The notes under the pieces were generated by a model, which was not told the DNA's origin, searched no databases, and saw nothing but the letters and a program-made list of their open reading frames with translations. 40,157 nucleotides of DNA. Source: a virus. Within the stretch, counting starts at the first letter, position 1. Every line of letters begins with the position of its first letter. Shown here piece after piece: positions 2,909 to 39,709 of the stretch. The DNA is taken from the IMG/VR virus record IMGVR_UViG_3300023179_000232, positions 1-40,157 of that record; one strand, 5' to 3'. A program made the translations under genes and the position numbers.

Positions 2909-2922
2909 TGTTTGACTAAACC
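2909..2922 (-). promoter_or_regulatory. Dispersed motif site 1 (reverse; 12/14)
   Basis: Read on the minus strand this is GGTTTAGTCAAACA: the 10-bp core TTTAGTCAAA is exact and two flanking bases differ from the consensus. It is followed on the + strand by CTTGCGCCA, a companion sequence also found after the genes ending at 19168 and 33530. Confidence 0.65.
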
Positions 2923-3089
2923 CTTGCGCCAATTTCCGGCGCAGCGTAATCGTCAGCACAGTTAGGCAGACAACTCCTTGTGGAGCCTGTCCAACGCGCA
3001 TGCCCAAGGCCGACGACCCGCCCGTGGCGGATAATCGGTAGCGCCGAGGACACCACAAACAAACAACCCGACGAGATCCGCACGATGCG

Positions 3090-3103
3090 GGTTTAGTCAA
3101 AAC
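3090..3103 (+). promoter_or_regulatory. Dispersed motif site 2 (exact)
   Basis: GGTTTAGTCAAAAC matches the consensus exactly. It starts on the last base of the hairpin CCGCA-CGA-TGCGG (3078-3090) and is followed by the AAAGGAG ribosome-binding site and the capsid ATG at 3120. Its position suggests control of the most heavily expressed late gene. Confidence 0.75.
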
Positions 3104-3119
3104 CAAAGGAGAAAAACCT

Positions 3120-4028
3120 ATGTCTGCTATCAGTCAAATTCCGCAGTATTTCACGACGGAATTCACCAGCAACTGGGAGCATCTGCTTCAGCAGAAAGTT
3201 TCCAAGCTGCGTGAATACGTTTCCGTCGAGAGTGTTCGCGGCAAAGAAAAAACATTCAACCAACTGGCCGCGGTCGAAATGACCAAGATCACCAACCGCG
3301 CCTCTGACACCAACATCAGTGACGTCACGCTGGCCAAACGCTGGCTCCGTCCTTACCCGTATGAACACGCCACGTTGTTCGACGAGTGGGATGCCGAGTA
3401 TCTTGGCGAAGTCAGCCTGCCGCAGTCCGAAACCGTCAGCAACCATGCGATGGCCTACATGCGGACTTGCGACAAGGTCATCATCGACGCCGCGCTGGGA
3501 ACCGCCTACACGGGCGAAACCGGCGTGACCCCGACCAGCTTGCCTTCGGGCCAGAAGGTCGCCGTCGATTACGTCGAAACCGGCAGCGCCGCCAACAGCG
3601 GTCTGACCATTGCGAAACTTCGCCAAGCCGCCTATCTGCTCAACGACGCAGAGGTGGACGACAGCGATCCTCGCGTCATCGTGGTCAGCGCCAAGCAAAT
3701 CCAAGATTTGCTCCGCACGACCGAAGTGACGAGCGCCGACTACAACAGCGTCAAGGCGCTGGTGCAGGGCCAACTCGACACCTTCATGGGCTTCAAGTTC
3801 CGCCGCGTGGCGTCGTCCTTGCTGCCTTACAACGCCAACACGGGCGTCCGCACCTGCTTTGCCTACGTCCGCTCCGGCGTCAAGCTGGCCGACGCGGGCC
3901 GCAAGGTTCATGTGGACATCCGCGCCGACAAATCGCACGCGCTGCAAATCCGCACCGTCGCTTCCTTGGGCGCGACCCGCATGGAAGAGAAGAAGGTCGT
4001 GGAAGTTGCCGCCGACGAGGTTCTCTAA
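3120..4028 (+). CDS. Major capsid protein
   Basis: A 302-residue shell protein resembling the phage capsid family common in small-tailed phages. Recognisable stretches are RPYPYEHATLFDEWD near residue 80, and a C-terminal part with YVRSGVKLADAGRKVHVDI then SLGATRMEEKKVVEV. This last part is typical of the conserved end of the family and matches an HK97-type A/P domain pattern. AAAGGAG lies 7-8 bases before the ATG, the best ribosome-binding site in this region, as expected for the most abundant virion protein. It is followed 32 bases later by a small structural gene with its own AGGAG. The capsid is separated from the scaffold by the 2.5 kb accessory island. Confidence 0.88.
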   Translation: MSAISQIPQYFTTEFTSNWEHLLQQKVSKLREYVSVESVRGKEKTFNQLAAVEMTKITNRASDTNISDVTLAKRWLRPYPYEHATLFDEWDAEYLGEVSLPQSETVSNHAMAYMRTCDKVIIDAALGTAYTGETGVTPTSLPSGQKVAVDYVETGSAANSGLTIAKLRQAAYLLNDAEVDDSDPRVIVVSAKQIQDLLRTTEVTSADYNSVKALVQGQLDTFMGFKFRRVASSLLPYNANTGVRTCFAYVRSGVKLADAGRKVHVDIRADKSHALQIRTVASLGATRMEEKKVVEVAADEVL

Positions 4029-4060
4029 TCAACAACAATCAACCATAGGAGAATCAACAA

Positions 4061-4531
4061 ATGGCTACGTTCTACACCGACATCGCTCCGGAAAATCTGG
4101 AGCTTAACGTCCGCAACCGCGTGGACGGCGACCTTGTCAAAGGCAACGTCGTTTACGCGCAGGCGACCTACACCACCACCGGCACCGAAGCGGCCACCGG
4201 CGACAACATCAATGTTGCCGTGTTGCCCGTCGGCGCGATCCCGCTGCCCGAACTCTGGCGCGTCAACAACGAGGCGTCCTTGGGCGGCTCCGTTGTGGCG
4301 ATCCCGAAGATCGGTGACGCGGGCGACGACGACCGTTACAGCGCGACCTCCATCTCGCTGAACAGTTCGACCGCCGGTTCGCAGGCCGTGACCCCGAACC
4401 TTGGGGTCAGCGTGCTTCCGCGTTACGTTGTGACCGACGCGACCCGCACCGTGGTCGCCGCCATCACGCGCACCAACGCGCTCACCGCAGGCAAGAAGAT
4501 CAGCTTCTTGCTCGCGTTCCGCATGCCCTAA
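4061..4531 (+). CDS. Small head-associated structural protein (probable decoration protein)
   Basis: A 156-residue protein with no family I can name. It is rich in Thr, Val, Ala and Gly with alternating hydrophobic pattern, suggesting mostly β structure (for example GDNINVAVLPVGAIPLPELWRV). It has a strong AGGAG 9 bases before its ATG, comparable to the capsid's, implying high expression. The position directly after the major capsid and before the head-tail adaptor fits a decoration or minor head protein, but that is inferred from context only. A probable terminator follows at 4551. Confidence 0.65.
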   Translation: MATFYTDIAPENLELNVRNRVDGDLVKGNVVYAQATYTTTGTEAATGDNINVAVLPVGAIPLPELWRVNNEASLGGSVVAIPKIGDAGDDDRYSATSISLNSSTAGSQAVTPNLGVSVLPRYVVTDATRTVVAAITRTNALTAGKKISFLLAFRMP

Positions 4532-4550
4532 ACGGGAACTCACAGCCGCT

Positions 4551-4574
4551 GGCAGACCGGCTCAATAGTCTGCC
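4551..4574 (+). terminator. Stem-loop after the capsid pair (probable terminator/attenuator)
   Basis: GGCAGAC (4551-4557) pairs perfectly with GTCTGCC (4568-4574) around a 10-base loop. It is followed by a pyrimidine-rich ACCTCTTTCACTTTC rather than a pure T-run. It could partially terminate after the capsid and decoration genes, separating strong from weaker late expression. Confidence 0.5.
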
Positions 4575-4589
4575 ACCTCTTTCACTTTC

Positions 4590-5195
4590 ATGGCCGACGA
4601 AACCTCCATCTGCAACTTGGCGCTGGCCAAGCTGGGCATCAGCCCGATCATGGCGCTGACCGACGACAGCAAGCAGGCCCAGTTTTGCAACAGGTTCTAC
4701 GCCCAGACCCGCGACGAGGTCTTGCAGTCCCACCGCTGGAACTTCGCCATGCGGCGGGCCGCGCTCAACAAGCTCTCGACCGCCCCGCAGAGCGAATGGG
4801 CCAGCGCCTACCAGTTGCCGGTCGATTGCCTGCGCGTGGTTCAACTCAACGGCTACGAACCCACCGAAAGGCTGGGGGAGTTTAGTGTCGAAGCCGATCA
4901 GCTTCTGACCAACGCCGAGGAAGCCAACATCCGCTACATTGGGCGGGTCGAAGACGGCGCGTTTTACCACCCGCTCTTTGTCCACGCCTTGGCCACCATG
5001 CTGGCCTCGCGCTTGGCAGGCCCGCTGACCGGAAGCCGCAACATGCCGCAGGAACTGTTGCAAGAATACGAGGCGCTGACCGGCCCCAAGGCCCGCATGG
5101 CCGACGCCTTTGAGCAACGGCTGCAACGCAAAATGCCTTGGGTCAACAGCGACCTTGTTGCCGCCCGCTACACCAAGTTTCCCAGCAGCCAATAG
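4590..5195 (+). CDS. Tail tubular protein A (gp11-like head-tail adaptor)
   Basis: A 201-residue protein matching the T7 gp11-type adaptor that forms the ring beneath the portal. The family pattern is clear. It begins ICNLALAKLGI, then CNRFYAQTRDEVLQSHRWNFAMRRA (residues about 30-54), the Trp-containing SEWASAYQLPVDCLRV, and a helical C-terminus with ATMLASRLAGPLTGS. Gene order adaptor-nozzle-core proteins is as in other T7-like virions, which supports the assignment. It starts after the stem-loop at 4551 and ends four bases before the nozzle gene. Confidence 0.85.
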   Translation: MADETSICNLALAKLGISPIMALTDDSKQAQFCNRFYAQTRDEVLQSHRWNFAMRRAALNKLSTAPQSEWASAYQLPVDCLRVVQLNGYEPTERLGEFSVEADQLLTNAEEANIRYIGRVEDGAFYHPLFVHALATMLASRLAGPLTGSRNMPQELLQEYEALTGPKARMADAFEQRLQRKMPWVNSDLVAARYTKFPSSQ

Positions 5196-5198
5196 GTC

Positions 5199-7910: not shown

Positions 7911-7919
7911 CATTAGCGT

Positions 7920-7933
7920 GTTTTGACTAAACC
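7920..7933 (-). promoter_or_regulatory. Dispersed motif site 3 (reverse, exact)
   Basis: GTTTTGACTAAACC is the exact reverse complement of the consensus. It fills the gap between the nozzle gene and the ATG at 7935, ending one base before that start codon, so a bound protein would sit where the ribosome-binding site should be. Confidence 0.75.
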
Positions 7934-7934
7934 C

Positions 7935-8351: not shown

Positions 8352-8352
8352 C

Positions 8353-9015: not shown

Positions 9016-9017
9016 TC

Positions 9018-11030
9018 ATGGCCAACATCCCGCTCGTCCAAATCCCCAACGCCCCGCAGACCGGCTCGACCGCCGTGCCGCTGCCGGTGGGGGCCATCCG
9101 CACGCCCGACGTCGAACTCATGGGCATGATCGACGACGCCAGCTACATGGCCGTGGGCCGCGCCTACGAGAATCTGGGCAACGCCGGTCAGCAAGCGGCC
9201 AACGTCTTGGGCGACTTTTCGCTGTCGATGGCCCGCGCCACCGACGAGGCCAACCTTGCCGCCGCCGACCGCATCAAGACCGACATGCTCTCAAAGTTCG
9301 ACGCCGAGGTAGCCACCAAGCCGGAGAGCGAGTGGAACGCCATTTGGGAAAACAACTACGCGCCCAAGCTGCGCGACCAAGTGACCTCGCTTCGCATGAC
9401 CACCCGCGACGGACTCAACCGGCGCGACATCTGGCTGGCCAACACCGAGAACGCGGTGAAGGCGCAAGTTTTCACCAGCGCCAACAAAGCCATCGTCCAG
9501 CGCGGCAAGCAGGAGATCACCAACTACATCGACCGCGCTATGGGCGAGGGTCGCTGGGAGGACGCGATGGCCGGATACAAACGCGGGGCAGCAGCGGGTT
9601 TTTGGACGCCGGAGGACGCCGAGGCGGGCATGATCAAGATCGAAGAGGAGCAAAAGGTTTCCACAATGACCCAAGCCATCCAGCAAAACCCCGCCCAGTG
9701 GCGCAAGGAACTGGCCAAGTATCAGAAAGAGGGCAAGAACCCCCACAAGCTGCGCCCCGAACAGGTGCTGCAATTCCGGCGCATGGCCGAGGGCAACCAC
9801 GCCCAGCTTCTCGACGACCTCAACAACCAAATGCTCAACCGCTTGGAAACCGAGAGCGCCGCCATCACCAACGACCAGATCGAAGAATTTTACAACCGGC
9901 CCGACGTCGATGCTCCGCGGGAACTCATCAACAAGATGAAGGAATACCGCGACTTCAAGTATGCCGACACGCCGGAAGGCCAAGCCGAGCAGGCCACGCG
10001 CTTCAGTGACCTTTGGCAGAAAATTTTCAGCTACGACGCGGAGAAGGACATCAGCATGGCCGATCCCGACACACACAAGCGCGAATACCAGCGCCTCATC
10101 AGCGAGATCGTCACGACCGCGCCGGAGGGTCAGCGCAAGCCATTCATGGACACGCTTGACAAGATGGTCAGCGATGCCAACCAAGGCGTCAAAAGCCGCG
10201 CCGACGAGATCACCAAGGGGCTGACCGACTTGACCGGCAAGCTCGCTTCATGGGGTCAACTGGGCGACGACGGCGGGTGGAAGGAAGTGACCAAGGACGG
10301 CAAGACCGAGCGCGTGCCGAAAGACCCCGCCATGCAACTGCAAGTGCAGACCAAGCGTCTGGAGATCACCAACGACATCCGCGCCATGCTGCGCGAGAAC
10401 CCCGACCTCACCGAGGAGCAGGCAATGGAACGGTTCAAGGGCATTTTGGAAAACCGCTTGGACGGCGGGGCGCTGTTCATGCAGCAGCCCGACGAGGAGG
10501 GCTGGTGGGATACCTTTAAGTCCTTCATTCCGGCAGCGGGAGCCGCGGCTTTGCCCGCGCCATTGCAGGCTCCGGCCAGCATGATGTTCCGCGGGGCCAA
10601 GGCACCGGCTTCGATCCGCCACAACAACGCCGGAGCCATGTGGTATGTCGGCGGATGGCAGAAAAAATTCGGAGCCGAGTTTGGTCAGAACCTCAACGAC
10701 GGTCTGGGCCAAGGCAACCAGATCGCCAGCTTCCCCACGCCCGTGCATGGGGCCGCGGCGCTCATGTATCAGCTTGACCGCCCCATCTACCGCAACAGCA
10801 GCGTGCGCCAAGCCATTGCCAAATGGAGCGGGGGCAACAACGTATCCAGCTACCTTTCGGTGCTGAAATCGGCAGGGTTTAGTCCAAACCAAAAAGTGGC
10901 CGACATCATGTCCTCGCCGGATCAAGCCATTGCGTTTGCCAAGGCGATGGCCCGCCACGAAGCCGGAACAGATTACCCGATGAATGACGACCAGTGGCAG
11001 CAAGCCTTCGCCATGTTCCAGCAGGCATGA
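9018..11030 (+). CDS. Internal core protein (gp15-like) with C-terminal peptidoglycan-hydrolase-like domain
   Basis: A 670-residue protein, mostly charged helix (residues 1-520), as expected of a core protein ejected into the periplasm. A Pro/Ala-rich linker (about 510-530, PAAGAAALPAPLQAPA) leads to a distinct C-terminal domain beginning SIRHNNAGAMWYVGGWQ. This domain has a RxNNAG/RxNNPG-type motif, then FPTPVHGAAALMYQLD and AIAKWSGGNNVSSYL. That pattern matches lysozyme-like or transglycosylase-like domains carried by many virion proteins to open the cell wall during injection. In T7 itself such activity sits in gp16, so the fusion to gp15 is notable. The TGA overlaps the next ATG (ATGA at 11027). 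A one-mismatch copy of the dispersed motif lies in the C-terminal coding part. Confidence 0.7.
   Translation: MANIPLVQIPNAPQTGSTAVPLPVGAIRTPDVELMGMIDDASYMAVGRAYENLGNAGQQAANVLGDFSLSMARATDEANLAAADRIKTDMLSKFDAEVATKPESEWNAIWENNYAPKLRDQVTSLRMTTRDGLNRRDIWLANTENAVKAQVFTSANKAIVQRGKQEITNYIDRAMGEGRWEDAMAGYKRGAAAGFWTPEDAEAGMIKIEEEQKVSTMTQAIQQNPAQWRKELAKYQKEGKNPHKLRPEQVLQFRRMAEGNHAQLLDDLNNQMLNRLETESAAITNDQIEEFYNRPDVDAPRELINKMKEYRDFKYADTPEGQAEQATRFSDLWQKIFSYDAEKDISMADPDTHKREYQRLISEIVTTAPEGQRKPFMDTLDKMVSDANQGVKSRADEITKGLTDLTGKLASWGQLGDDGGWKEVTKDGKTERVPKDPAMQLQVQTKRLEITNDIRAMLRENPDLTEEQAMERFKGILENRLDGGALFMQQPDEEGWWDTFKSFIPAAGAAALPAPLQAPASMMFRGAKAPASIRHNNAGAMWYVGGWQKKFGAEFGQNLNDGLGQGNQIASFPTPVHGAAALMYQLDRPIYRNSSVRQAIAKWSGGNNVSSYLSVLKSAGFSPNQKVADIMSSPDQAIAFAKAMARHEAGTDYPMNDDQWQQAFAMFQQA
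10876..10889 (+). promoter_or_regulatory. Dispersed motif site 4 (intragenic; 13/14)
   Basis: GGTTTAGTCCAAAC differs from the consensus at one base. It lies inside the gp15-like gene in the codons for AGFSPNQ, about 140 bases before the next gene starts. Being coding, it may be a chance match, or a site reachable from the 11027 start. Confidence 0.4.
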
Positions 11031-14000
11031 TCAGCTTCGCCGCCACCCCGCAGTCCAAGGAAGCGCAGCAGGCGCGGGCCTACACCGACCCCAGCGCCGG
11101 AGCGCCGCCCTCACGCCGCAGCGGCTCCAACGCGCCCTACGTTGATCGCGACCACTGGAACAAGGTTTTCACCGACCAGACCTACTTCGACTCCATCGCC
11201 AAGCAGAAGGGCATGGCCGAGGGCGCAAAGGTCAGCCTGCATGGCGACGACTACGTCTACCGGCAGGCCATGATCGGCTACTTGGCCGACACTCGCAACG
11301 TGCCGCTCGACGACATGCGGTCGATCTTTGACGCCGAGAAAGACAGCTTCGCCCAGAAGGTCTTGGGCAAACAGACGGCCAGCGCCCGCGAAATGTTTGA
11401 ATGGCAGAAGAGCAAGTTTGAGCGCGACAACGAGAAACAGGCCGCGGCACGCCAGATCCTCAACAACGTCGCGCAGCGGGCCATCACCGACTTCGCCACC
11501 GGAGGCGACACGCCTTTTGTCGAGAGCGTGGCCAAGGACATCGATGCCGCGGGCGACATGTTCAGCGACGAGGAAAAGTCCCTGCTCTGGCAGCAAGCCG
11601 AGGAGAACGACATCAAGCTCCGCGCCACCCAGATGCGCTTTGCGCCGGAGGCCAAGTTCATTTTCGACGCGCTGCGTCAGACGACCGGAGAGGGCGCGGG
11701 CTTTGGCGCTCCCGACATGCGCGAGATGGCCACCCGCTTTGCCAAGCTGCCCGACAACCAGCGCCGCGCCATCTACGAACTGGCAGGCAGCTTTGCCCAA
11801 CTCAACCAGACCGACAAGGGGTTCTGGTATCAGTTGGCCGAATCCCTTGGCCGCGGGGCCAGCGACATTGTCGAGCGCGTGCCGCGCAACATGAAAGAAC
11901 AGGCGCTCCGCAACGACCTTCGCTTGCTGGAAGGCGACCAGCCCGTCTTTGCCGGAACCGGCGTGCAGGGCGTGGCCTATAGCGCCTTCGGCACCAAGGC
12001 GCTGACACCGGAAGAACGCGAGCAGGCCGCGGACAAGGTGCGCGGCGAACTGGGCGTCTTCAAGGTCGAGCGCGAATTGCGCGACTTGGCCGAGCGGGTC
12101 ATTGATCCGATCAAGACCGTCACCGTCCTGCCGGAAATCGTCGAGGAAGGCTTATACGGTGCCGCCCGCAGCCTTCCCTATACCGCCGTCGCCGCGGTTC
12201 CCTACGCGGGCGCTCCCGCGGTCGCCGCCGCCCTCTACAGCAGCAACTACGACCGGATCATGCTGGAGTATCCCGACATCGATCCCGACAAGGCCGCGCT
12301 TCTCGCCGCCATCTCCGCGCCTATCGAAGCGGGACTGGAGCGCATGAAGGTCAACACCATCGTTGGCCGGTTGCCGTTTTTTGGAGGTTTAGTCAAACGC
12401 TTCCAGCATCCCAACCAGCGCAACATCACCCGCATCGCCATCGGCGGGGCAGGGGTTTTGGCCGAGCAAAACGCGCAGGAGATTTTGCAAAACGCCACCT
12501 TCCCCTTTGTCCAAATGATCGGGGCCGCGCTCGACCAAGACATCCCCGAATACAAGCTCGACTTGGCCAGCATGCCGCGGGACTTGGCGGTGCAGTTTGT
12601 CGCCCTTCTCCCGCTCTCCCTCATGGGTATCGGTGCGCTGTCCTACCGCGAAATCAGCCGCGGAGAAAACTATCTGAAAGAAAAGCCGACGCTGATGAAA
12701 GTGTTGAGCGAAGAGGCTGCTGACCGCGTTTTGGGCGCAACTACGCCGGAAGAAGCGCGGGCCATCTTCCGCGAAGAATACGCCAAGCGCACACCCGAAG
12801 AGGTCAAAGCCGCCGCCCAGCGCGTCGTCGATGAAGTCCTCGCCCTGCGCGAGAAGTCCAATCCTGCCGCCCTGCCGCGTCTGGAGAAGCAGGGTGCCGA
12901 CTACGTTGTCCTCTCGCCGGAAGGCAAGGAACTGGCCCGCTCGACCGACCAGACCGCCGCCGAGCAGGCGCTTGTTTCCGCCCGCCGCGAGACGGTGCAA
13001 CGCGAAATGCGCGATGTTCACACCGGCATTAACGAAGCCGTCGCCTTTATCCAGAAGGTCAACGAGGCCCGCCAGCGCGGCGAGGACGTCGCCAAGATCA
13101 TCCGCGAGGAAGCACCCCGCACGCTGCTCGACGACTACGAGGCCAACCCCACGCAGGAAAACCTCGACCGGCTCTTTGAGACTGTCCGCGCCTTCGGGCA
13201 GGAGATCAACGAACCCGCCGAACTGGCCAACTTCCCCGTCACCGGCAGCAACCAAGGCGCACTGCGCGAGGGTATTTGGCGCTCCATCATCCGCATCAAC
13301 GAGGGCGCGGACGGCACCATCGTCATGCGTGAGTTCGCCCAAGACAATCTCAAGCGGGCGATTGCCGAGGGCCGCACCACGTTGGACTTCGTCCGGCAAC
13401 AACTCAACGACATCCTGCCGCAGATCGACAGCGACCGCATGGAGCGCCAGCTACGCACCGAGACGGACACCGACGTCATTGAAGCCTTCTCCGACATTGC
13501 CTTGGCCTACTTCCGCGGCAACATCCGCGACGAGCAAATTCCCGCGGGCCTGCGCGGATTCATCCGGCGCTTGGCCATCTTCACCCGCGACATCTTCCGC
13601 CGCGCCTACAACCTCGCCCGCCTCCGCGCCGAAGGGAAACTCGACCGCGACTTTGAGGCGCTCTTGGCCGAAGCCGTCGGCGTTGACCAGCAGGCGCTGG
13701 TAGACCGCTCCCGCGAAAAGACCGCGCAGGAGGTTGCGCCGGAGACGGCGAATTATTCGATTGGCGTCAGTTCGCAACAAGACGCCGACTACCTCGCAGC
13801 CGTCGAGCGCGGCGACATGGAAACGGCGCAGCGGATGGTGGATGAGGCGGCGAAGGCGGCTGGGTATGATATTGGGCCGGTATATCATGGGTCGCCGGAA
13901 ATAAGCATAACCACATTCAACACAACAAGCCCGCCTCGCAGAACTGGCGATTCCTCGGATGCTCAGTTGGGGGCTTTTTTCACAGATGACATCCCTGCCA

Positions 14001-19193: not shown

Positions 19194-19207
19194 GGTTTAG
19201 TCAAATC
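19194..19207 (+). promoter_or_regulatory. Dispersed motif site 6 (13/14)
   Basis: GGTTTAGTCAAATC sits six bases before the ATG at 19214. Upstream, right after the preceding stop, is TAAACTCTTGCGCCA (19166-19180). Read as a promoter, TTGCGC (-35) and TTTAGT (-10) would be 17 bases apart, an ideal sigma-70 spacing. TAAAC and GTTTA could also pair as a stem. Confidence 0.65.
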
Positions 19208-23217: not shown

Positions 23218-23231
23218 GGTTTAGTCAAAAC
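23218..23231 (+). promoter_or_regulatory. Dispersed motif site 7 (exact) with sigma-70-like spacing
   Basis: GGTTTAGTCAAAAC abuts the ATG at 23232 with no gap. TTGACC (23197-23202) lies 17 bases before TTTAGT (23220-23225), so the site could be the -10 region of the lysis-cassette promoter. No Shine-Dalgarno sequence remains before the ATG, so translation would be leaderless or near-leaderless if transcription starts here. Confidence 0.7.
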
Positions 23232-23533: not shown

Positions 23534-24095
23534 ACCCAAGACTCGCCCGCGCATTACCGCGCAGGACGTCGAGGAAATTGTCCGCAAGAACGGCGTCAAA
23601 GACGCTGTCGCCATCGTGGGCATTCGCGGCTACTACCTCCGCACCCTTGGCGACCCACGGAAGAACGACCGCGGGATATGGGACGACTGCATTGCGGTGA
23701 TCTCGCCCACAACATTCGCCGCATACAACGGCAACACCGACCCGTCGTTCTGGCGCAAAGGCATTGCGTCACTGGTCGAAGGCGTCCACCGCTACCGGAA
23801 GGGCAAGCACGGGATCTCCCGCGGCAACCCATATCCGGCGCTGCGTCCGGCGACACCGGATGAATCGGTGCCGGTGACGCGGGACGGCGAACTGGGGCGC
23901 TCGCGTGGAATCGCCATAAACATTCACCGCGGGGGAAGCATCGACTCGACATCACAATCTGTGACTTCAAGTCTTGGGTGCCAGACGATCCCACGCGAGC
24001 AGTGGCCCAGCTTCATCGGACTCGTTTACGGGGAGATGGATCGGTATCAGCAGAAGACGGTTCCTTACGTTCTAACGTCGGCACAGAGCGCCTAA
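23520..24095 (+). CDS. L,D-transpeptidase-like cell-wall enzyme (putative endolysin)
   Basis: A 191-residue protein. The N-terminus is basic. The core runs VAIVGIRGYYLRTLGDPRKNDRGIWDDCIAVISP. It ends in INIHRGGSIDSTSQSVTSSLGCQTIP. The H-x-G-G … S-x-G-C arrangement (His about 137, Cys about 154) resembles the HX14-17(S/T)xGC catalytic motif of YkuD-type L,D-transpeptidase folds. Phage members of this class are thought to act on peptidoglycan. No signal peptide is present, so it would need a holin, and a holin-like ORF precedes it. Its last 83 bases overlap the convergent integrase gene. It could instead be a carboxypeptidase of similar fold. Confidence 0.55.
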   Translation: MPATKPKTRPRITAQDVEEIVRKNGVKDAVAIVGIRGYYLRTLGDPRKNDRGIWDDCIAVISPTTFAAYNGNTDPSFWRKGIASLVEGVHRYRKGKHGISRGNPYPALRPATPDESVPVTRDGELGRSRGIAINIHRGGSIDSTSQSVTSSLGCQTIPREQWPSFIGLVYGEMDRYQQKTVPYVLTSAQSA

Positions 24096-25212
24096 TCGCT
24101 TCGGCCATAGTCTGTATCGAAGCATGAGTGTAGTTGTTGCTGACCTTTGTCGAATCGTGGTCGCAGACGAGTTGCCGCACGCGTTGATCAACCCCTGCAT
24201 CGCACATGAGACTGTTGATGGTATGTCGGAAGGAATGAAACGTCTTGTCCGTCATCCCGCGACCTTGGCCTTTCTTCTTGGTTTTCGTCCGTGTGATGCC
24301 AGCGCGGTCGAGCAGATCGGAGAAGTGGCGTGAGGCCACGGATACCGACAGCTTGGCAAGGACGGGGGTGATTTTACCTTTTCCGCGGAGGGTGGAAAGT
24401 TCGCCTACGAGCGGAACCGAGACGACGACGCCTTTGCGGCTTTTCTTCTCCGGCAAAAAGCGCAGGACGCCGTTTTCGATTTCCTCGTAGCGGCGGCGCG
24501 TGGCGTCACCAATTCGCATACCGTAATACAACCCGAATAGACAGGCGGTGCGCCACTCCGACTCCGCGGCGGCAAGGATGGCGGCGATCTCGTCTTTGGT
24601 AAACGCCTTCCGGCTGGTGCCTCCGGTGCGTTGCAGCGAGACAAGCTCCGCAACATTGCTGTCGATCTGCCGGAGCAGAACGGCCCGCCGGAGGACAGAG
24701 CGGACGGCCTTGATGATGTAGACCACGGTCGATTCGGCCAGACCGCTGTCGGCCAGCGACTGCCGGAAGTCCGCGATGTCGTCGGCGGTGATGCCGCGCA
24801 GATCGTGACCGGCGCGGACACCCAGCCAGCGGGCGAAGTGGGCAACGTCATTGCGATACTTCTCCAGCGACCGCGGCTTCGATGATTTGGCCGCGAGCCA
24901 GCCCTCGACGGCCTTGTGCCACGACGTCTTTTTCCGCGGGTTGGCGACGTTGGCCAGCCGTAGGAGCGAGTCCAACCGGCGCTGCGCCCAATGCTCGTCG
25001 ATAGCCTCCGGATTGCGGGCCTCGCGCCCTGTGCGCTCCATTTCGTCGGCAACGGCCTTTGCTGCCCGCTTGGGCGTGGTTTTGTGTGGCAGGCGGGTGG
25101 AACGCATGGTAAGCCTCCAGAAGCCTCCGGCAGGGTATTCCGGCGAGACAATCCACACGCGCATGCGGGCAATCCAATATGGTGACGAGGGGATGGTGGT
25201 AAGCGATGCCAT
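24013..25212 (-). CDS. int: Tyrosine integrase
   Basis: A 399-residue tyrosine recombinase that would join attP to a host tRNA gene and excise it again. The N-terminus (residues 8-60, SPYWIARMRVW, then LPHKTTPKRAAKAVADEMER) resembles the arm-site-binding domain. Residues 95-185 are a SAM-like core-binding domain. The catalytic domain has R233 (YGMRIGDATR), a likely Lys near 257-258 (EKKSRKG), H326-S-F-R329 (FHSFRHT), H352 (CDHDS) and nucleophile Y361 (NNYTH). It is the only confident minus-strand gene. Its 5' end faces attP about 100 bases away, and its 3' end overlaps the lysis enzyme gene. Starting at the first ATG keeps the complete arm-binding domain. Confidence 0.93.
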   Translation of the reverse strand: MASLTTIPSSPYWIARMRVWIVSPEYPAGGFWRLTMRSTRLPHKTTPKRAAKAVADEMERTGREARNPEAIDEHWAQRRLDSLLRLANVANPRKKTSWHKAVEGWLAAKSSKPRSLEKYRNDVAHFARWLGVRAGHDLRGITADDIADFRQSLADSGLAESTVVYIIKAVRSVLRRAVLLRQIDSNVAELVSLQRTGGTSRKAFTKDEIAAILAAAESEWRTACLFGLYYGMRIGDATRRRYEEIENGVLRFLPEKKSRKGVVVSVPLVGELSTLRGKGKITPVLAKLSVSVASRHFSDLLDRAGITRTKTKKKGQGRGMTDKTFHSFRHTINSLMCDAGVDQRVRQLVCDHDSTKVSNNYTHASIQTMAEAIRRSVPTLERKEPSSADTDPSPRKRVR

Positions 25213-25421: not shown

Positions 25422-25435
25422 CGTTTGACTAAACC
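25422..25435 (-). promoter_or_regulatory. Dispersed motif site 8 (reverse; 12/14)
   Basis: Read on the minus strand it is GGTTTAGTCAAACG, with the core exact. It ends two bases before the ATG at 25438, and so sits between attP and the first gene of the early region. Confidence 0.6.
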
Positions 25436-25437: not shown

Positions 25438-25962
25438 ATGCCTTACGCCGACCGCGAGCAGCAACTGGCCGCGATGCGAAAACGCTACGCCGAGCGGTAT
25501 GCGTCGGATCCAAAGTTCCGGCAAGAAGAGGCCAAGCGCAAAGCCCGCCACTATTCGCAGGACGAACTTTATCAGCGGCGAGCAAAACAAAGGGCCGCGC
25601 TGCGACATCGCCGCACTTACATTCCGGCAAGCGAACGCTGCCCGTATCACGCTGCCTTGCTTAAAATCGCCCGCATCTTAAAAAAACTGGAGGGGCATGC
25701 CTGTAAATGTCCTACCCCCGCCGGTAGTGTGGCCGGTGATATGGAACACCAAGCTATTGAACTCATCTTGCAACTTTCACACAGGGAGGGTTTTACCCCA
25801 TCCGAATTGTTGGCTGACGCACTTGACAACTGGCAGACAGTGGATGACAGTTCCCAGTATGAAGAAGAAACCGACCAGCGGCGGGAGGGCGGCGGATCGC
25901 ATCCGCAAGACGCTGTCCTTGCCGCAGGATCTGACGGCTCGCATCCAAGAGGTGGCCGATGA
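25438..25962 (+). CDS. Basic helical protein at the start of the early region, unknown
   Basis: A 174-residue protein. The first 60 residues (YADREQQLAAMRKRYAERYASDPKFRQEEAKRKARHY) are Arg/Lys/Glu-rich helix of a type often seen in phage and environmental bacterial proteins with HNH-like or DNA-associated roles. Two Cys (ERCPYH, ACKCP) could bind metal. Later comes EHQAIELILQLSHREGFTPSELLADALDNW, which looks like a small helical domain. The final 35 residues overlap the next gene out of frame and look less protein-like. Function unknown; it is the first rightward gene after attP. Confidence 0.5.
   Translation: MPYADREQQLAAMRKRYAERYASDPKFRQEEAKRKARHYSQDELYQRRAKQRAALRHRRTYIPASERCPYHAALLKIARILKKLEGHACKCPTPAGSVAGDMEHQAIELILQLSHREGFTPSELLADALDNWQTVDDSSQYEEETDQRREGGGSHPQDAVLAAGSDGSHPRGGR
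25829..25841. promoter_or_regulatory. Palindromic operator copy 1 (ACTGGCAGACAGT, one mismatch)
   Basis: It follows a perfect -35-like TTGACA (25823-25828) and lies 17 bases before the ribbon-helix-helix-like gene at 25859. One base differs from the exact copies near 26.1 kb. Autorepression of that gene is the natural reading. Confidence 0.5.
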
Positions 25963-26086: not shown

Positions 26087-26088
26087 TA

Positions 26089-26667: not shown

Positions 26668-26841
26668 ATGCCCACCGAACCCACCATCCGCAAAACCATA
26701 TCGTTCCCGCGCAGCCTTGTCGTCCGGCTGGCCGCGGAGGCCAAGTCCGAGCGCCGCCGGTTCTCGCCACAGGTCGTCAAGGCCATCGAAGACCTTTTTG
26801 CGCTCCAAACTGTCAGACAGTCCAAGGGAGGCCAGCGATGA
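26668..26841 (+). CDS. Second ribbon-helix-helix-like DNA-binding protein
   Basis: A 57-residue protein with a β-strand IRKTISFP followed by helices RSLVVRLAAEAKSE and FSPQVVKAIEDLFAL, the short MetJ/Arc-type pattern. Unusually, an exact operator ACTGTCAGACAGT (26809-26821) lies inside its own 3' coding sequence, encoding QTVRQS. The TGA overlaps the next ATG. It and the gene at 25859 could be competing regulators, as in a Cro/repressor-type switch; that is inference. Confidence 0.55.
   Translation: MPTEPTIRKTISFPRSLVVRLAAEAKSERRRFSPQVVKAIEDLFALQTVRQSKGGQR
26809..26821. promoter_or_regulatory. Palindromic operator copy 4 (exact, intragenic)
   Basis: ACTGTCAGACAGT, identical to the copy at 26115-26127, lies within the 3' end of the gene at 26668, 17 bases before the next start codon. 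A 13-bp exact repeat in a coding region is unlikely by chance. Confidence 0.6.
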
Positions 26842-27062
26842 CGCTCATTGATAAAGCCCACGCCGCACCCCGCGGCGACCAGCGCAACTACAGCAACGAA
26901 CTTGTCGATGCCGTCGAAGTGTTGCGCGGCAAGGGCTGGGGCTTCCGCGCCATTCACAAGTGGATGTCCGACCAAGAGGAAGACGTCCACCCCAACTGGG
27001 TCACTTTCGCGTCGGCCATGTGCCAGCGCATTCAACACCGCAGGAACAAGAACACACAATGA
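26838..27062 (+). CDS. Small helix-turn-helix-like protein, unknown
   Basis: A 74-residue protein starting at ATG 26838 in the ATGA overlap. The segment YSNELVDAVEVLRGKGWGFRAIHKWMSDQEEDVHPNWVTFASAM looks like a short tri-helical DNA-binding unit (GWGFRAIHKWM as a turn, WVTFASAM as the recognition helix). This is the shape of domains that choose small regulators or recombinase accessory proteins. The basic tail QHRRNKNTQ would suit DNA contact. No named family. Confidence 0.5.
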   Translation: MTLIDKAHAAPRGDQRNYSNELVDAVEVLRGKGWGFRAIHKWMSDQEEDVHPNWVTFASAMCQRIQHRRNKNTQ

Positions 27063-30340: not shown

Positions 30341-31176
30341 AACGCCCATCGTTCCAATTTTACCCGTCCGACTGGCGCAACGACTCCGGCCTCCGGCTCT
30401 GCTCGCTGGCGGCGCGGGGGCTGTGGGTCGAGATGATGTGCATCGCCCACGAGTGCGACGAATACGGCAAACTCACGCAAAACGGCAGGGGTTTCTCGCA
30501 CAAAACCCTTGCAAAACTTGTGGGTTTGTCGCCGCAAACCTGCCTCAAATTATTGAAAGAACTGGAGGAGAATAAAGTGTTCTCCCGCGACGAAAACGGC
30601 GCGATTTATTCGCGGCGAATGGTTCGTGATGAGGAGATTAGGAAGATTCGGGCCGAGGCCGGAAGCAAGGGCGGCAACCCGATTTTGCTTGGGAATTTGG
30701 TTAAGCAAAACGGCAAGCAAAAACCAACCCCTTCTTCTTCATCTTCATCTTCTATAGATCATTCTATCCGCCGCGGGTGGACTTTGGAGGAGGTCATTGC
30801 CGCCGGTCAGATGGCCAGCGTGACGCCGGAGGTCTGCAAGGCGTATTACGACGCCCGCGAGGCCGTCGGCTGGGTGGATCGAAATGCCATCGCCATCAAG
30901 TCCATGCCGCATGACTTGTCACGCTTCGCCGCCCATTGGGCCGAGAACGAGCGTAAACGCCCCTCCAAGGCTTTGACTAAACCAAAAGGGGTCTGGGATG
31001 CCAAACAGGGCATCGACGCCTTAAACGCGAAGCTGGAGCGAATGAAGGCCAATCCCAAGTTCCGGCGGCATAAGCCAGAGACGCCTTGGGAGACGGAGTG
31101 GACGCCGGAGGCCAAAGCCGAGGTCGCCGCGATCCGCGCCAAGATCCGCGAATTGGAAGGGGTGGTGGCGGCGTGA
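30337..31176 (+). CDS. Replication-initiator-like winged-helix protein
   Basis: A 279-residue protein starting at GTG (GTGA overlap, AAGGAGG before it). The N-terminus KRPSFQFYPSDWRNDSGLRLCSLAARGLW is the hallmark of a phage replication/helicase-loader-like family. It is followed by a winged-helix region (KTLAKLVGLSPQTCLKLLKELEENKVFS). A Ser-only linker (SSSSSSS, 30730-30755) leads to a C-terminal part with EAVGWVDRNAIAIKSM. It likely recruits host DNA polymerase machinery, since no phage polymerase gene is present. A one-mismatch dispersed motif lies in the codons for ALTKPK. Confidence 0.7.
   Translation: MKRPSFQFYPSDWRNDSGLRLCSLAARGLWVEMMCIAHECDEYGKLTQNGRGFSHKTLAKLVGLSPQTCLKLLKELEENKVFSRDENGAIYSRRMVRDEEIRKIRAEAGSKGGNPILLGNLVKQNGKQKPTPSSSSSSSIDHSIRRGWTLEEVIAAGQMASVTPEVCKAYYDAREAVGWVDRNAIAIKSMPHDLSRFAAHWAENERKRPSKALTKPKGVWDAKQGIDALNAKLERMKANPKFRRHKPETPWETEWTPEAKAEVAAIRAKIRELEGVVAA
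30970..30983 (-). promoter_or_regulatory. Dispersed motif site 9 (reverse, intragenic; 13/14)
   Basis: On the minus strand it is GGTTTAGTCAAAGC with exact core. It lies inside the initiator-like gene. If it binds a protein, it could influence replication at an internal origin as well as transcription; chance is the alternative. Confidence 0.4.
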
Positions 31177-31207: not shown

Positions 31208-31414
31208 ATGCCCAACACGCTGGAGAGCTACATTGAGCATGTCCTCCACGACGACGAGATCACGGTGATGAACATCCTTGCCGAGCATTGCTATCTCGTC
31301 AGCGACAACGCCTTTCGGGCCGGTGACGTCGCCAACTCCGGCGAAGTGGTCGCGTGGATCGAACGCAACCCGCAATACTTTCGGCGCGGTTTAGTCAAAA
31401 CAAAACGGCGATGA
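31208..31414 (+). CDS. Small protein, unknown
   Basis: A 68-residue protein, helical and acidic in the first part (TLESYIEHVLHDDEITVMNILAEHCYLVSDNAFRAGDV), ending in a basic tail (FRRGLVKTKRR). The last codons coincide with the exact dispersed motif at 31388, so the tail GLVKTK is encoded by it. No family recognised. Confidence 0.5.
   Translation: MPNTLESYIEHVLHDDEITVMNILAEHCYLVSDNAFRAGDVANSGEVVAWIERNPQYFRRGLVKTKRR
31388..31401 (+). promoter_or_regulatory. Dispersed motif site 10 (exact)
   Basis: GGTTTAGTCAAAAC overlaps the last codons of the gene ending at 31414 and precedes the ATG at 31411 by nine bases. Exactness and the position before a start codon argue for function despite coding overlap. 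Confidence 0.65.
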
Positions 31415-32439: not shown

Positions 32440-33105
32440 AGATCGACTACGCCATCCAAACATCCGAGCGCACCCGCGACCGGCTGACGCTTTGCGAAAA
32501 CTGGACGCGCCACGTTCAGAAACCCAGCACCGTCCGGTTCATCAGCGATGAGCAAGTGGGGCGAGGGGATTACTTGTCAGCCATCGACAAGACGATATTT
32601 GCCATCGACACGTTCCAAGTTCGCTACGACTGGCTCTACATCGTGGACGACGACGGCTACGTTGTTCCGCGGCGCTTGGAATTGCGACTGATCGACCTCG
32701 ACCCCGACGAGCATCATGCCATCGGCTGCGTGCAGGGCGTGCTATCCAACGAGACGCACAAGTTTCCGGCGCTGCATGGCGGGTGCGGCTACGCGCTCTC
32801 ACGCGCCACCGCGCTGGCACTGCAACAGCGGCATTGGCATGGCGAACTGGTGGCACCACCGCAGCAGCGATGCGACGGTTGCGATCAATCTGCACCTCAT
32901 GCGCGTAATACCGGAGAACGACTCCCGATTTACATGCAATGCGCCAGCGGAAGATGCGACCGAGACATTCATCGCGTGTCACAAAGCGAAACCCGAAGAC
33001 TACGCACGACTCAACAGCGCACAACCGAACATAGTTGAGGCGAGCGAAGCGAAGCCGAATAAGATAGAGTGGTTTAGGAAAAACGTGGTCAAGAGTTTAG
33101 TTTGA
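32433..33105 (+). CDS. Fringe/GT31-like glycosyltransferase, split by an apparent frameshift
   Basis: From ATG 32433 the first frame contains YDWLYIVDDDGYVVP (D72-D74, the metal/sugar-nucleotide-binding DxD) and HGGCGYALSRATAL (residues 115-127), both signatures of Fringe or β-1,3-galactosyltransferase-type enzymes. The frame then degenerates and stops at 33038. In the +1 frame the family continues from about 32848 as WWHHRSSDATVAINLHLMRVIPENDSRF, including the conserved acidic SSDAT, and ends at 33105. The shift must lie between about 32815 and 32847. It could be a true mutation, an assembly error, or +1 programmed frameshifting. Intact, it might glycosylate phage DNA, a virion protein, or host surface sugar. 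Such enzymes are unusual in phages. Confidence 0.6.
33071..33084 (+). promoter_or_regulatory. Degenerate dispersed motif (12/14)
   Basis: GGTTTAGGAAAAAC differs at two central bases. A second partial copy, AGTTTAGTTTGACC, lies at 33095-33108 just before the small-terminase gene. They may be decayed sites; support is weak. Confidence 0.3.
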
Positions 33106-33549: not shown

Positions 33550-33563
33550 GGTATAGTCAAAAC
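33550..33563 (+). promoter_or_regulatory. Dispersed motif site 11 (13/14)
   Basis: GGTATAGTCAAAAC lies six bases before ATG 33570. It follows TAAACTCTTGCGCCA (33528-33542) and a GCGC-CATTT-GCGC mini-hairpin. The companion sequence is identical to that after the stop at 19168, which supports a composite element repeated at both places. Confidence 0.65.
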
Positions 33564-33569
33564 ACGCCG

Positions 33570-36736: not shown

Positions 36737-37122
36737 CGCCGATCGAAAAGTGCAAGATGCTCTACACGCCGCAAAGCCCGCGGACGTTTGAGGAGGACAT
36801 GATGGCGCACTTGGCGCATGGGTATTTTTTTTCCACGCCGGAGTATGTGCTGATGGGCCGTCCGGTCTGGAGCCAAGCCACGCAGGAGCAGATCAATGAC
36901 GTCTGGTGCGCCTTCCCGCCGGAACTGCACGATGCGTGGTATGTCTACGCTTTCGCCTTGGCCGACGATCAAGGTCTGGCGGGTTTAGTCAAAAAACTAT
37001 TGCGCCACATTCCGTTTTATCTTCCGCTCATCGCATGGGAGAGAAGCGGCCATCCGCTGACTTTCTTTTCGACCGACAAACTCATCCAAAAATATGCGCT
37101 TCTACAACTCGTCCAAGATTGA
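36733..37122 (+). CDS. Unknown protein downstream of terminase
   Basis: A 129-residue protein, aromatic-rich (YFFSTPEYVLMGRPVW, then FPPELHDAWYVYAFALAD). I know similar short proteins near the terminase in podoviruses but cannot name their role; the FFSTPEYVLMGRP stretch is their hallmark. An eight-T run lies in this stretch (36825-36832). A dispersed-motif copy encodes GLVKK. It overlaps the next ORF by 29 bases. Confidence 0.55.
   Translation: MTPIEKCKMLYTPQSPRTFEEDMMAHLAHGYFFSTPEYVLMGRPVWSQATQEQINDVWCAFPPELHDAWYVYAFALADDQGLAGLVKKLLRHIPFYLPLIAWERSGHPLTFFSTDKLIQKYALLQLVQD
36982..36995 (+). promoter_or_regulatory. Dispersed motif site 12 (intragenic; 13/14)
   Basis: GGTTTAGTCAAAAA, followed closely by AAACTATTGCGCCA, which is also the companion sequence of other sites. 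This coding position is thus less likely to be chance. It precedes the head-gene group by about 100 bases. Confidence 0.55.
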
Positions 37123-37387: not shown

Positions 37388-37389
37388 AT

Positions 37390-37632: not shown

Positions 37633-37635
37633 AAC

Positions 37636-37719
37636 ATGGAGCTAACCTTCCATCTGGCCGTCTTTGCGGTGGGTATCGTCCTGCTGATTACCGCGGCTAA
37701 CGACCCCGACCTCTGGTGA
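37636..37719 (+). CDS. 27-codon single-helix membrane peptide, uncertain
   Basis: ATG 37636, stop TGA overlapping the portal's GTG. The translation is one hydrophobic helix (TFHLAVFAVGIVLLITAA) with an acidic end NDPDLW. Perfect fit between two genes and a helix-like sequence support it, but it is very short. Confidence 0.4.
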   Translation: MELTFHLAVFAVGIVLLITAANDPDLW

Positions 37720-39404
37720 AAGACAACGTCCAACTCGCTGACTGGGTTCTCGCCCGCAACCAAGATTTGGGCGCGGAACGCGCCTCGTGGGACACGCACT
37801 GGCAGGAGTTGGCCGAGTATTTCCTGCCGCGCAAGGCCGAGATCAGCGCCAAGCGCAGTGTGCCGGATTCATCCCGCTACGATGTCCTCTTCGATACAAG
37901 CGCCGTCCAAGCCGCGGCCACGCTGGCCAATGGTCAGCTTGCCTACATCACGCCTGCTGACAGCCGGTGGTTTGTCTACGAGCCGCCCAAAGGGGTCAAC
38001 AGCGACAAGGCCAAGCAGTGGTATGCCAAATGCTCCGAGGCCACCCAGTTGCTTTTGGCGACCAGCAATCTCTACACCGAGATCCACGAACTTTACTACG
38101 ACGACAGCGTCTTCGGGACGTATTGCATGTTCGTCGAGAGTGGCACCAGCCATCCGCTCGTCTTTCACAAGTTCGACATCGGCACCTACAGCTTGGCCGA
38201 GAACGACGAGGGTTTGATCGACACCGTCTTCCGCGAACTGGAACTGACCGTCCTGCAAGCCGCCGACAAGTTTGGCGAGGAAAACCTCGCGCCTGCCATG
38301 CAGAAGAAGCTCGACGAGATCCGGCGCACCGGCAAGGGCGGCACCGTCAAGCACCGCTTCATCCATGCCCTCTACAAGCGCGACGACGCCGACCGCGACC
38401 GCAACAAGGCCGACGGGCCGAACAAGCCTTGGGCCAGCGTCTACGTTGACCAAAGCAACAAGCATGTTTGCCGCAACAGCGGCTACGACGAGAAACCCTT
38501 CTTCGCCGGTCGCCATGTCAAATCGCAGCAGGGCGTCTACGGTGTCTCTCCGGCATGGATGGCGCTACCGGAAGCCCGCCAACTCAATTTCTTGGCCAAA
38601 CAGCTTGACGCCCTCGCGGAGATCAAAGCCTTCCCTCGTCTCCTCATGCCCGCTACGCACGAAGGGGAAGTCGATTTGAGATCGGGGGGCGTCACCTACT
38701 ACGATCCGACCCAGCCCAACGCGCTGCCGCAGGAGTGGGCCACTGCGGGCGACTACCAGATCGGCTTGGAGCGCGAGAACCGCAAGACGCAGTCGATCAA
38801 CACCGCCATGCATGTGGACATGTTCCGCATGTTCGCCTCGCTCGACCGGCCCAACATGACGGCCACCGAGGTCGCGGAACGCGCTTCCGAGAAGCTGGTG
38901 CAGTTTTCCCCGTCCTTCACCCGCAAGACGACCGAACTCCTCACACCCATGCTGCGCGGGGTCTTCGGCATCTTGATCCGCAACGGGCATTTCCCGCCGC
39001 CGCCGCAGGACGCCATTCTCATGGACGCGATGGGCCAGCCCATTTTGCCGGAACCGGAGGTCAGCTATGTCAGCAAGGTCGCCTTGGCCATCCGCGCCAT
39101 GCACAACCTTTCCTTGGCAAGGACGATGGAGCGCAACGCCATCATCGCGCACGTCCGGCCCGAAGTGCTGGACAACTTCAAGTGGGACGTCATCAGCCGC
39201 GAGACGGCCCGCAACGACGGTCTGCCCGCCGACTGGCTCGCTGAAGAGGACGAGGTCGAGAGCGTGCGCCGCGCCCGCGCCGAGGCGCAGGCCAAGATGC
39301 AGCAACAGCAGGAGACGCTCACGATGGCCGAGGCCGTCGGCAAGGCTGGCAGCGTCAAACAGGATTCCGCTTTGGGACGTCTGATGAACCAAGCCACCGC
39401 ATGA
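37716..39404 (+). CDS. Portal protein (T7 gp8-like head-tail connector)
   Basis: A 562-residue portal, starting at GTG in a GTGA overlap. It forms the ring through which DNA enters and leaves the head. The N-terminal SWDTHWQELAEYFLPRKAEI, then DTSAVQAAATLANGQLAYITPADSRWF, and the C-terminal MHVDMFRMFASLDRPNMTATEVAERASEKLVQFSP are family-typical for podovirus portals. The final helix is Gln/Glu-rich (EAQAKMQQQQETLTMAEAV), as in the barrel of long portals. ATG of the next gene overlaps the stop (ATGA). Confidence 0.9.
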   Translation: MKDNVQLADWVLARNQDLGAERASWDTHWQELAEYFLPRKAEISAKRSVPDSSRYDVLFDTSAVQAAATLANGQLAYITPADSRWFVYEPPKGVNSDKAKQWYAKCSEATQLLLATSNLYTEIHELYYDDSVFGTYCMFVESGTSHPLVFHKFDIGTYSLAENDEGLIDTVFRELELTVLQAADKFGEENLAPAMQKKLDEIRRTGKGGTVKHRFIHALYKRDDADRDRNKADGPNKPWASVYVDQSNKHVCRNSGYDEKPFFAGRHVKSQQGVYGVSPAWMALPEARQLNFLAKQLDALAEIKAFPRLLMPATHEGEVDLRSGGVTYYDPTQPNALPQEWATAGDYQIGLERENRKTQSINTAMHVDMFRMFASLDRPNMTATEVAERASEKLVQFSPSFTRKTTELLTPMLRGVFGILIRNGHFPPPPQDAILMDAMGQPILPEPEVSYVSKVALAIRAMHNLSLARTMERNAIIAHVRPEVLDNFKWDVISRETARNDGLPADWLAEEDEVESVRRARAEAQAKMQQQQETLTMAEAVGKAGSVKQDSALGRLMNQATA

Positions 39405-39691
39405 CCACCGACAAAGAACTGGAGCGCAGCAAGTCGCTCCAGCGCATCAACAACGCCTACCACCGCGTCTTCGATTCCGAAGAGGGACGCCTCGTCTTGG
39501 ACAACCTCAAGGCGTATTTCCGGCTGAACCGGCCCGCCTTTGAGCGCACGCTGGGCCGGACGTTTGACCCCATCGCCGCGGCGGTGCGCGACGGCCAGCG
39601 GGAAGTGATCCTCTTTATCGAACACAAACTTTCGCTGCCTGTCGTCGGAGATGCCGACGTCGAGCGGCCCACCACCGAAGTCCTCCGCTAA
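39401..39691 (+). CDS. Bbp19-like small structural protein
   Basis: A 96-residue helical protein between portal and scaffold. The pattern NAYHRVFDSEEGRLVLDNLKAYF, then DPIAAAVRDGQREVILFIEHKL matches the short Bbp19-type family, which has AYxxVFxxxxGxxVLxDL and a GxRxxxxxI motif and always stands beside portal and scaffold genes. Its precise role is not known to me. The stop TAA (39689-39691) is part of a perfect inverted repeat with the dispersed motif that follows. Confidence 0.7.
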   Translation: MTTDKELERSKSLQRINNAYHRVFDSEEGRLVLDNLKAYFRLNRPAFERTLGRTFDPIAAAVRDGQREVILFIEHKLSLPVVGDADVERPTTEVLR

Positions 39692-39709
39692 ACGAGGTTT
39701 AGTCAAAAC
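39688..39709 (+). promoter_or_regulatory. Dispersed motif site 13 (exact) with inverted half-site
   Basis: GGTTTAGTCAAAAC (39696-39709) is exact. With the bases before it, it makes the perfect inverted repeat CTAAAC-GAG-GTTTAG (39688-39702). It lies between the Bbp19-like gene and the scaffold start at 39730, the only gap in this operon. Confidence 0.75.

Follow-up and report, generated by a model that had tools for sequence, protein, structure and literature searches.

Dispersed asymmetric operators are already established in phage P1 and in the cluster A actinobacteriophages. PMC8546580 gives 22 dispersed asymmetric 17-bp sites for the C1 repressor of P1, and PMC9283540 describes the stoperators of cluster A phages (L5, TipsytheTRex) as having one predominant orientation and failing when reversed. 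Other start-proximal phage repeats are in print without a known function: the Start-Associated Sequences (SAS) of cluster K, which can pair with 16S rRNA and are almost always in one orientation (PMC3203893); the 17-bp repeats of cluster O, which contain a dyad and number 34 copies in Corndog, many in short gaps and also in coding sequence (PMC4351075); and an 18-bp motif of Microbacterium EC phages, with 12 copies, many in short gaps, in one orientation and 21-30 bp before starts (PMC7302621). We analysed the virus record IMGVR_UViG_3300023179_000232 of IMG/VR (all 40,157 bases, hereafter the window), in which an original prediction had listed a 14-base motif at 13 places, mostly in short gaps before start codons. 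The word stands before many genes throughout a family of related phages, which suggests that a viral protein may bind it and thereby control many genes at once.

All 13 sites are present at the positions and on the strands first reported (Table 1); five (3090, 7920, 23218, 31388 and 39696) are exact 14-mers, and the core TTTAGTCAAA is exact at 11 of the 13. With up to 3 mismatches the window holds 17 matches, compared with a mean of 1.88 in shuffled sequence (sd 1.37, largest 6), and none of 100 dinucleotide shuffles reached 17; two of these arise from reading two quasi-palindromic sites in reverse, and the weaker extra matches lie at 33071 (2 mismatches) and 10678 (3 mismatches, perhaps chance). 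The match at 33071 is possibly a decayed site, because GGGTTAGTCAAAAC precedes the corresponding small-terminase gene in three relatives of class A (G013, G033 and G040). A de novo search scored the 10-mer at 54.8, and none of 40 order-3 Markov genomes gave more than 17.6. The claimed closeness to start codons also held, the starts at 3120, 7935, 19214, 23232, 25438, 33570 and 39730 following a site by 0-20 bases; the start at 31411 has a site 9 bases upstream, but this falls within the 3' end of the open reading frame (ORF) 31208-31414. Five of the 13 sites lie within clear genes (10876, 12386, 30970, 31388 and 36982), and the site at 2909 is within a doubtful 47-aa ORF. A second word, TGGCGCAAGAGTTTA, occurs with variants beside four of the main sites (2917-2931, 19166-19180, 33528-33542 and 36993-37007). 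With up to 3 mismatches it has 6 matches where 0.84 would be expected, and it is a possible extended or paired element.

Related phages carry the word family-wide, with a spelling that drifts between clades. Class A has GGTTTAGTCAAAAC, class B GG[A/G]TTAGTCGAAA, class D GGATTAGTCAAAAC and class C GGTATCAGTC[A/G]AAAAC; the right half, AGTC[A/G]AAA, is nearly fixed, whereas the left half varies (GGTTT, GG[A/G]TT, GGTCT or GGTATC) and is one base longer in class C. Among class-A sites (26 non-redundant of 112), 12 near-invariant bases, GGTTTAGTCAAA, are followed by A in 65% and C in 77%, and no position flanking these sites exceeds 62%. Nor is any flank strongly conserved in the family, where the best such position reaches about 63%. 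For a wider census we scanned IMG/VR with the major capsid protein (MCP) as anchor, keeping in turn the top 80 among 594, 295 and 585 confirmed stretches; of 207 loci in total, those sharing a sampled 1500-base stretch with an earlier locus were removed, leaving 158 loci (1.6 Mb). The census samples near relatives and holds no loci at MCP identity 44-58%. At MCP identity of at least 58% to a query, 99 of 102 loci have a clade word (class C 75, A 17, B 5 and D 2), and at 44% or less 1 of 56 does, in a single copy. Three near loci carry no listed word: L323 (8.8 kb) uses a spelling of its own, GGTCTAGTCAAAA, in 4 places, and in the other two, fragments of ~5 kb, no word was found. Across the 158 loci the exact words number 410, and the reversed words 0. 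By de novo 10-mer enrichment, the clade's word was the top hit in 18 of 18 family records and in neither of two records outside the family. An exact-word scan of viral contigs, which also returned G039 and G041 from outside the family, gave among the matches listed many contigs with one copy only; hence a single exact word is not by itself diagnostic of the family. No such repeated word was found in Akkermansia prophage loci (MCP about 40%), and no comparable enriched word in the pelagiphage HTVC010P or MW202510. In another podovirus contig (L344, MCP 39%) two other words, CTCCCGACTC and AACGGAGTCG, recur 9-10 times within 18 kb, which may be an analogous system.

We then placed the sites relative to genes in 27 sequences (25 records including the window, plus two prophage stretches), allowing at most 1 mismatch. 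Genes of the relatives were called with a simple custom ORF scorer, which overlooked the small gene MPYA in the window and called it too short in G004 and G043. The set holds 262 sites, 5-14 per record, and as the genomes are related by descent these counts are not independent. Of the 262, 162 fall entirely in gaps, where about 17 would be expected, and the centres of 112 lie no more than 30 bases upstream of a called start, where about 9 would be. The sites recur at orthologous gaps: the clade's own word lies within 45 bases of the MCP start in 9/10 class-A, 2/2 B, 2/2 D and 10/11 C called genes (E 0/1), of the scaffold start in 8/10 A, 2/2 B, 1/2 D and 10/11 C (E 0/1), of the gp7935 start in 9/10 A, 2/2 B and 1/1 E, and of the portal start in 10/11 C and 1/2 B (D 0/2, E 0/1). 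In classes A, B and C the MCP gene also has a distal site, at a distance of 130-180 bases, and class E has the distal one only. Where gaps are at least 60 bases long, the sites tend to lie near the downstream start, at a median relative distance of 0.14 in A (n=24), 0.13 in B (n=6), 0.30 in C (n=30) and 0.07 in D (n=5), with a lone E case at 0.98. Clades differ freely in orientation. The sites in the MCP and scaffold gaps are plus in A, B and D and minus in C, those at the tail-fibre gene plus in A and D and minus in B and E, and those at gp7935 minus in A, B and E, 0-1 base ahead of the ATG. Class A has reversed sites at gp7935, at MPYA and at the distal MCP position. Opposite orientation at the same gaps in different clades counts against promoter, RNA and ribosome-binding or start-associated elements.

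The word is also maintained inside genes. At the coding site in gp36733, class A reads GGT TTA GTC AAA AAA (GLVKK), E GGT TTA GTC AAA AAT (GLVKN), B GGA TTA GTC GAA AAA (GLVEK) and D, in one record (G048), GGA TTA GTC AAA ACA (GLVKT), so that in the switch between lysine and glutamate it is the DNA word that the amino acid follows. The codon TTA makes up 2.3% of class-A leucine codons, yet it is used in 26 of 55 Gly-Leu-Val tripeptides, 25 of the 26 being GGT TTA GTC AAA; the corresponding counts are 7/9 in B, 2/3 in E, 1/5 in D and 0/19 in C, where the word differs (homologous genes entered once per genome). The codon choice thus points to selection on the DNA word within genes.

In the genomes searched, for which exact class-A and class-C words were used, the word is phage-specific. 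All 6 exact class-C words in the Verrucomicrobia metagenome-assembled genome (MAG) JAGWWS01 (2.6 Mb) are on two contigs with prophage genes. Among 387 genomes of the phylum the class-C 15-mer is confined to the JAGWWS01 prophage (reversed control 0), and the class-A 14-mer has two occurrences, each in a different genome (reversed control 10, a hand count of rows), leaving no repeated word outside one prophage.

Given these data, we favour, with a probability of about 0.6, the reading that the motif is a set of dispersed asymmetric, stoperator-like operator sites for a phage-encoded DNA-binding regulator. The original prediction had proposed sites for a phage regulator, and this is the best-supported reading, with the binder itself a candidate only. 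It draws on the sites themselves, their conservation in the family, the clade drift, the maintenance in coding sequence, the phage specificity in the genomes searched and the freedom of orientation; what we infer is the binding by a phage protein, the repression and the identity of that protein. The site would be a two-part double-stranded DNA element, made of one of the four left halves and the common right half, that a phage-encoded protein would bind at 5-14 positions in each record, usually right ahead of a start codon and twice over before the major capsid gene in A, B and C. Once bound, the protein would coordinately hold back or gate transcription into early and late genes, through the entry of host RNA polymerase into them, most likely as repression in the lysogen, much as dispersed operators do in P1 or stoperators in cluster A mycobacteriophages.

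The likeness to these systems is partial. With the cluster A stoperators our sites share the many copies of a short asymmetric word in small gaps and a consensus that differs between subgroups or subclusters (PMC9283540, PMC6550527). In contrast to stoperators, which keep one orientation, the sites here flip between clades and within genomes, no homologous repressor was recognised here, and host phylum and virion type are different. The L5 parallel drawn at the outset therefore stands for dispersal, asymmetry and clade drift and falls for fixed orientation; by analogy the system would work like P1 C1 operators or L5 stoperators while departing from the orientation rule of the latter. The L5 stoperator 13-mer, which we take to be GGTGGMTGTCAAG, matches class C by eye at 8 of 13 positions. 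As in P1, asymmetric sites are scattered over the genome, for one phage repressor in P1 and in a putative operator role here; unlike those of P1, they have a different sequence, have no C1 homologue recognised in the PHROGs scans, and abut start codons. P1 operators mostly overlap promoters. The motif resembles the 13-base SAS in standing immediately before many start codons and being kept across subgroups (PMC3203893), but it has no Shine-Dalgarno or GGAG-type core, occurs in both orientations and has coding sites, and it is not a cluster K-type start-associated sequence. The cluster O repeats and the EC motif likewise come in multiple copies in short gaps (cluster O in coding sequence too); the former form a dyad, the latter keeps one orientation, and neither host nor sequence is common. 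In the open literature searched, we found no paper with GTTTAGTCAAA and none pairing 'stoperator' with 'Verrucomicrobi'.

Several observations weigh against the operator reading. Conservation at a given gap is incomplete, gp7935 having no clade word in class C (0/9) and the portal gene none in class A (0/10 called genes). One genome, G029, has the class-A word, yet its core proteins are about as distant from those of the window as class B's. Within clades the gap sites are biased in orientation (plus/minus: A 40/25, B 9/4, C 8/66, D 7/0, E 0/3), with opposite sign in A, B and D versus C, and because each clade is biased, orientation may matter. In G004 and G043 the MPYA site is C-like (GGTATGAGTCAAAACC, the sole copy in each), the rest of their words are class A and their MPYA is divergent, a pattern that is not predicted by a strict match with a binder from the MPYA module and that counts against either candidate discussed below. 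PHROGs scans of 40 window stretches, with the giant gene and gp36733 outside the scan, showed no recognisable repressor; the lone regulator-type match was a weak one of the DnaD-like protein to a transcriptional-regulator family (E 0.008).

The bias in orientation would also suit a promoter element for a host RNA polymerase that is alternative or modified by the phage, such as a late promoter of leaderless messages. The sites adjoin start codons, and at gp7935, at the class-C portal gene and at gene 23232 no room is left for a Shine-Dalgarno sequence after the site. In the window neither sigma-70-like promoters (1 against 4.1 expected in 1-20000, 5 against 5.4 in 20158-40157) nor terminators are enriched, the former again fitting a promoter of another kind. 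We nevertheless regard this alternative, raised in the original prediction, as improbable, since the orientation flips at the same orthologous MCP, scaffold and tail-fibre gaps, the reversed class-A sites at gp7935, MPYA and the distal MCP position include sites 0-1 base before a start codon, coding sites lie far from starts, no second box is conserved, and no phage RNA polymerase was found among the proteins scanned. An N4-type virion RNA polymerase was set aside, the giant protein having no polymerase family in Pfam (searched in three pieces; the PHROGs scan left it out). An RNA hairpin (GGTTT/AAACC) was rejected too, because the stem is by eye lost in class B and most class-C sites; the capsid-proximal class-C site has a 6-base dyad around TTCG, and Rfam gave no match at its gathering threshold.

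A structural or segregation site for a phage protein (parS-like, or serving condensation, packaging or replication control), placed in gaps because these tolerate it, would account for the spread round the genome, both orientations and the tolerated coding sites, but not for the crowding towards the downstream start in the longer gaps (the lone E case excepted) or for the sites kept at orthologous starts, and we rate it improbable as well. More doubtful still is a recombination linker, a shared word that enables cassette exchange at gene junctions. Some sites head variable genes (gp33570, behind the site at 33550, is present in 3/10 class-A genomes), two pairs of site regions have longer common flanks (D16, D18), and cluster O phages recombine between such repeats (PMC4351075); the coordinated drift within clades and the maintenance with rare codons inside conserved genes would be left unexplained. 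The remaining alternative of the original prediction, a site of a host regulator or nucleoid protein exploited by the phage, has nothing but its general possibility in its favour and is very improbable, given that the JAGWWS01 copies all lie on prophage-bearing contigs and that the class-A 14-mer is rarer than its reversed control in the phylum.

To seek the binder, we clustered the called proteins of the family and rechecked MPYA by hidden Markov model and frame search. Two protein families from outside the virion and packaging block are shared by all five classes: the integrase (21 sequences) and MPYA (22). By frame search MPYA was found in 23 of the 27 sequences, and the four that lack it are incomplete 29-31 kb records or the other prophage stretch. 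RecT and gp7935 (22 each) are without class D, and gp36733 (14 sequences), within the packaging block, is in all five. We consider as binders MPYA and the homeodomain-like gp26838 (with an HTH_17-like protein in its place in clade C), each on its own a possible but rather unlikely choice. MPYA adjoins the integrase gene, and in class A the word abuts its start codon in 6 of 8 called genes and in the window; in B and E a degenerate copy overlaps the start codon, and in the class-C records viewed MPYA follows the integrase by a few bases and has no proper site. In the window it has a C-terminal extension of more than 100 aa that is absent from the relatives seen. AlphaFold predicts three helices (pLDDT 87, pTM 0.48), for which Foldseek found no PDB match up to E 10. 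Sequence searches gave one chance-like Pfam match to a eukaryotic EF-1 region (E 5.7e-4, 1 of 7 members), no convincing PHROG relative (best E 0.0077, 1 of 7), a best E of 2.2 in the PDB and, for one relative in tblastn at E 1, no match in 50,697 named phage records. Since MPYA is small, basic and beside the integrase, it could equally be an excisionase. We hold it unlikely that dispersed silencing works through a basic three-helix MPYA (or a partner) reading the bipartite word in either orientation, with a left half that drifts even in length, and with site spelling and coding sequence co-evolving into a clade-specific immunity code.

The alternative candidate, gp26838, is present in 9/10 class-A, 2/2 B, 2/2 D and 1/1 E genomes and in none of C; eight class-C sequences have in its place in the early region a gene that by eye is HTH_17-like. 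Its model is homeodomain-like at modest confidence (pLDDT 78), and the comparison with homeodomain-like chains (Z about 4) is not discriminating; in Pfam the best matches are XPB_DRD (E 0.0061, 2 of 10 members) and HTH_32 (E 0.014, 4 of 10). Ribbon-helix-helix-like early proteins (25859-26077 and 26668-26841, by eye) were set aside as binders, their number and presumed DNA-contact strand varying within class A while the word is constant; the contact positions were placed on the assumption that these proteins resemble Arc, and neither protein has a Pfam or PHROG match of the ribbon-helix-helix kind.

Table 1. Word sites and candidate regulatory genes in the window
Feature	Coordinates	Strand	Remarks
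Site, the farther of the two before the major capsid gene (distal)	2909..2922	-	Distal capsid site also in classes B, C
Exact site preceding the Shine-Dalgarno of the major capsid gene (3120), 16 bases from the gene	3090..3103	+	
Exact site, 1 base before gp7935, reversed	7920..7933	-	Orthologous sites in classes A, B, E
Site within gp9018 (GGTTTAGTCCAAAC)	10876..10889	+	
Site within the 2713-aa gene 11027-19168, in-frame GLVKR	12386..12399	+	
Site 6 bases before the tail-fibre gene (19214)	19194..19207	+	Reversed in classes B, E
Exact site abutting gene 23232 (45-aa ORF, lipoprotein-like by eye)	23218..23231	+	
Tyrosine integrase	24013..25212	-	Temperate life style
Site 2 bases ahead of MPYA (25438), with the attP-like stretch on one side and the early region on the other	25422..25435	-	
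MPYA protein, candidate binder	25438..25962	+	Relatives 56-67 aa as called, all five classes
gp26838, 74-aa homeodomain/HTH-like protein, alternative candidate binder	26838..27062	+	Classes A, B, D, E
Site within the DnaD-like gene	30970..30983	-	Class B has its own version within its DnaD-like gene
Exact site, 3' end of gp31208, in-frame GLVKT	31388..31401	+	
Possible decayed site before the small-terminase-like gene	33071..33084	+	2 mismatches
Site (GGTATAGTCAAAAC) 6 bases ahead of 33570, which leads three extra genes from TerS-like to TerL	33550..33563	+	
Site within gp36733, in-frame GLVKK	36982..36995	+	Orthologous coding site in A, B, D, E with class-specific codons
Exact site 20 bases before the scaffold gene (39730)	39696..39709	+	

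The record ends repeat over 126 bases (15-140 = 40032-40157), so it appears to be a circular or terminally redundant genome of ~40.0 kb, and its gene content is that of a temperate T7-like podovirus. The packaging and head genes are small-terminase-like 33132 (by position), TerL 35195, portal 37716, MCP 3120 and the scaffold from 39730, named by position and with a weak PHROGs match to a protease; tail-tube genes lie at 4590 and 5199, the tail-fibre gene at 19214, and the 2713-aa protein within the internal virion region. Further genes encode RecT, an exonuclease VIII-like protein, RusA and a DnaD-like protein. A nucleotide search with the first 25 kb matched no near named phage, and by MCP the nearest named phages are pelagiphages of the HTVC010P type, at no more than 45% identity. 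Bacterial genomes gave 17 loci with a capsid relative, one of them close (MCP 63%) and integrated in JAGWWS01, which would make Verrucomicrobiota the probable host phylum of the window phage.

Other features stand apart from the word or beside it. A perfect 21-base inverted repeat (1-21/51-71) at the left end of the record is perhaps an assembly fold-back. Before the tail-tube gene, a hairpin-like CCGCTGGCAGACCGG...GTCTGCC (4540-4590), conserved in classes A, B, C and E, is likely an intrinsic terminator or processing site. Extra genes lie between the TerS-like gene and TerL (33532-35208), headed by their own copy of the motif. The gap between the integrase and MPYA holds a stretch that by eye resembles a tRNA 3' end (GGTTCGATTCC..., 25300-25345), a probable attP core for tRNA integration, in which ARAGORN found no tRNA. 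Adjoining it, a direct repeat of TTAGCACAC occurs twice, 13 bases apart (25370-25391); relatives have related repeats (TTATCCAC in G029), which resemble integrase arm sites or DnaA-box-like words.

To our knowledge, the host phylum has been little studied for phages. The five spellings of one word, the compensation in coding sequence and the flips of orientation offer a natural experiment on the joint evolution of a regulator with a dozen sites. The clade spellings give a direct handle for finding the binder, and the word is a simple marker with which to find and classify these phages in metagenomes.

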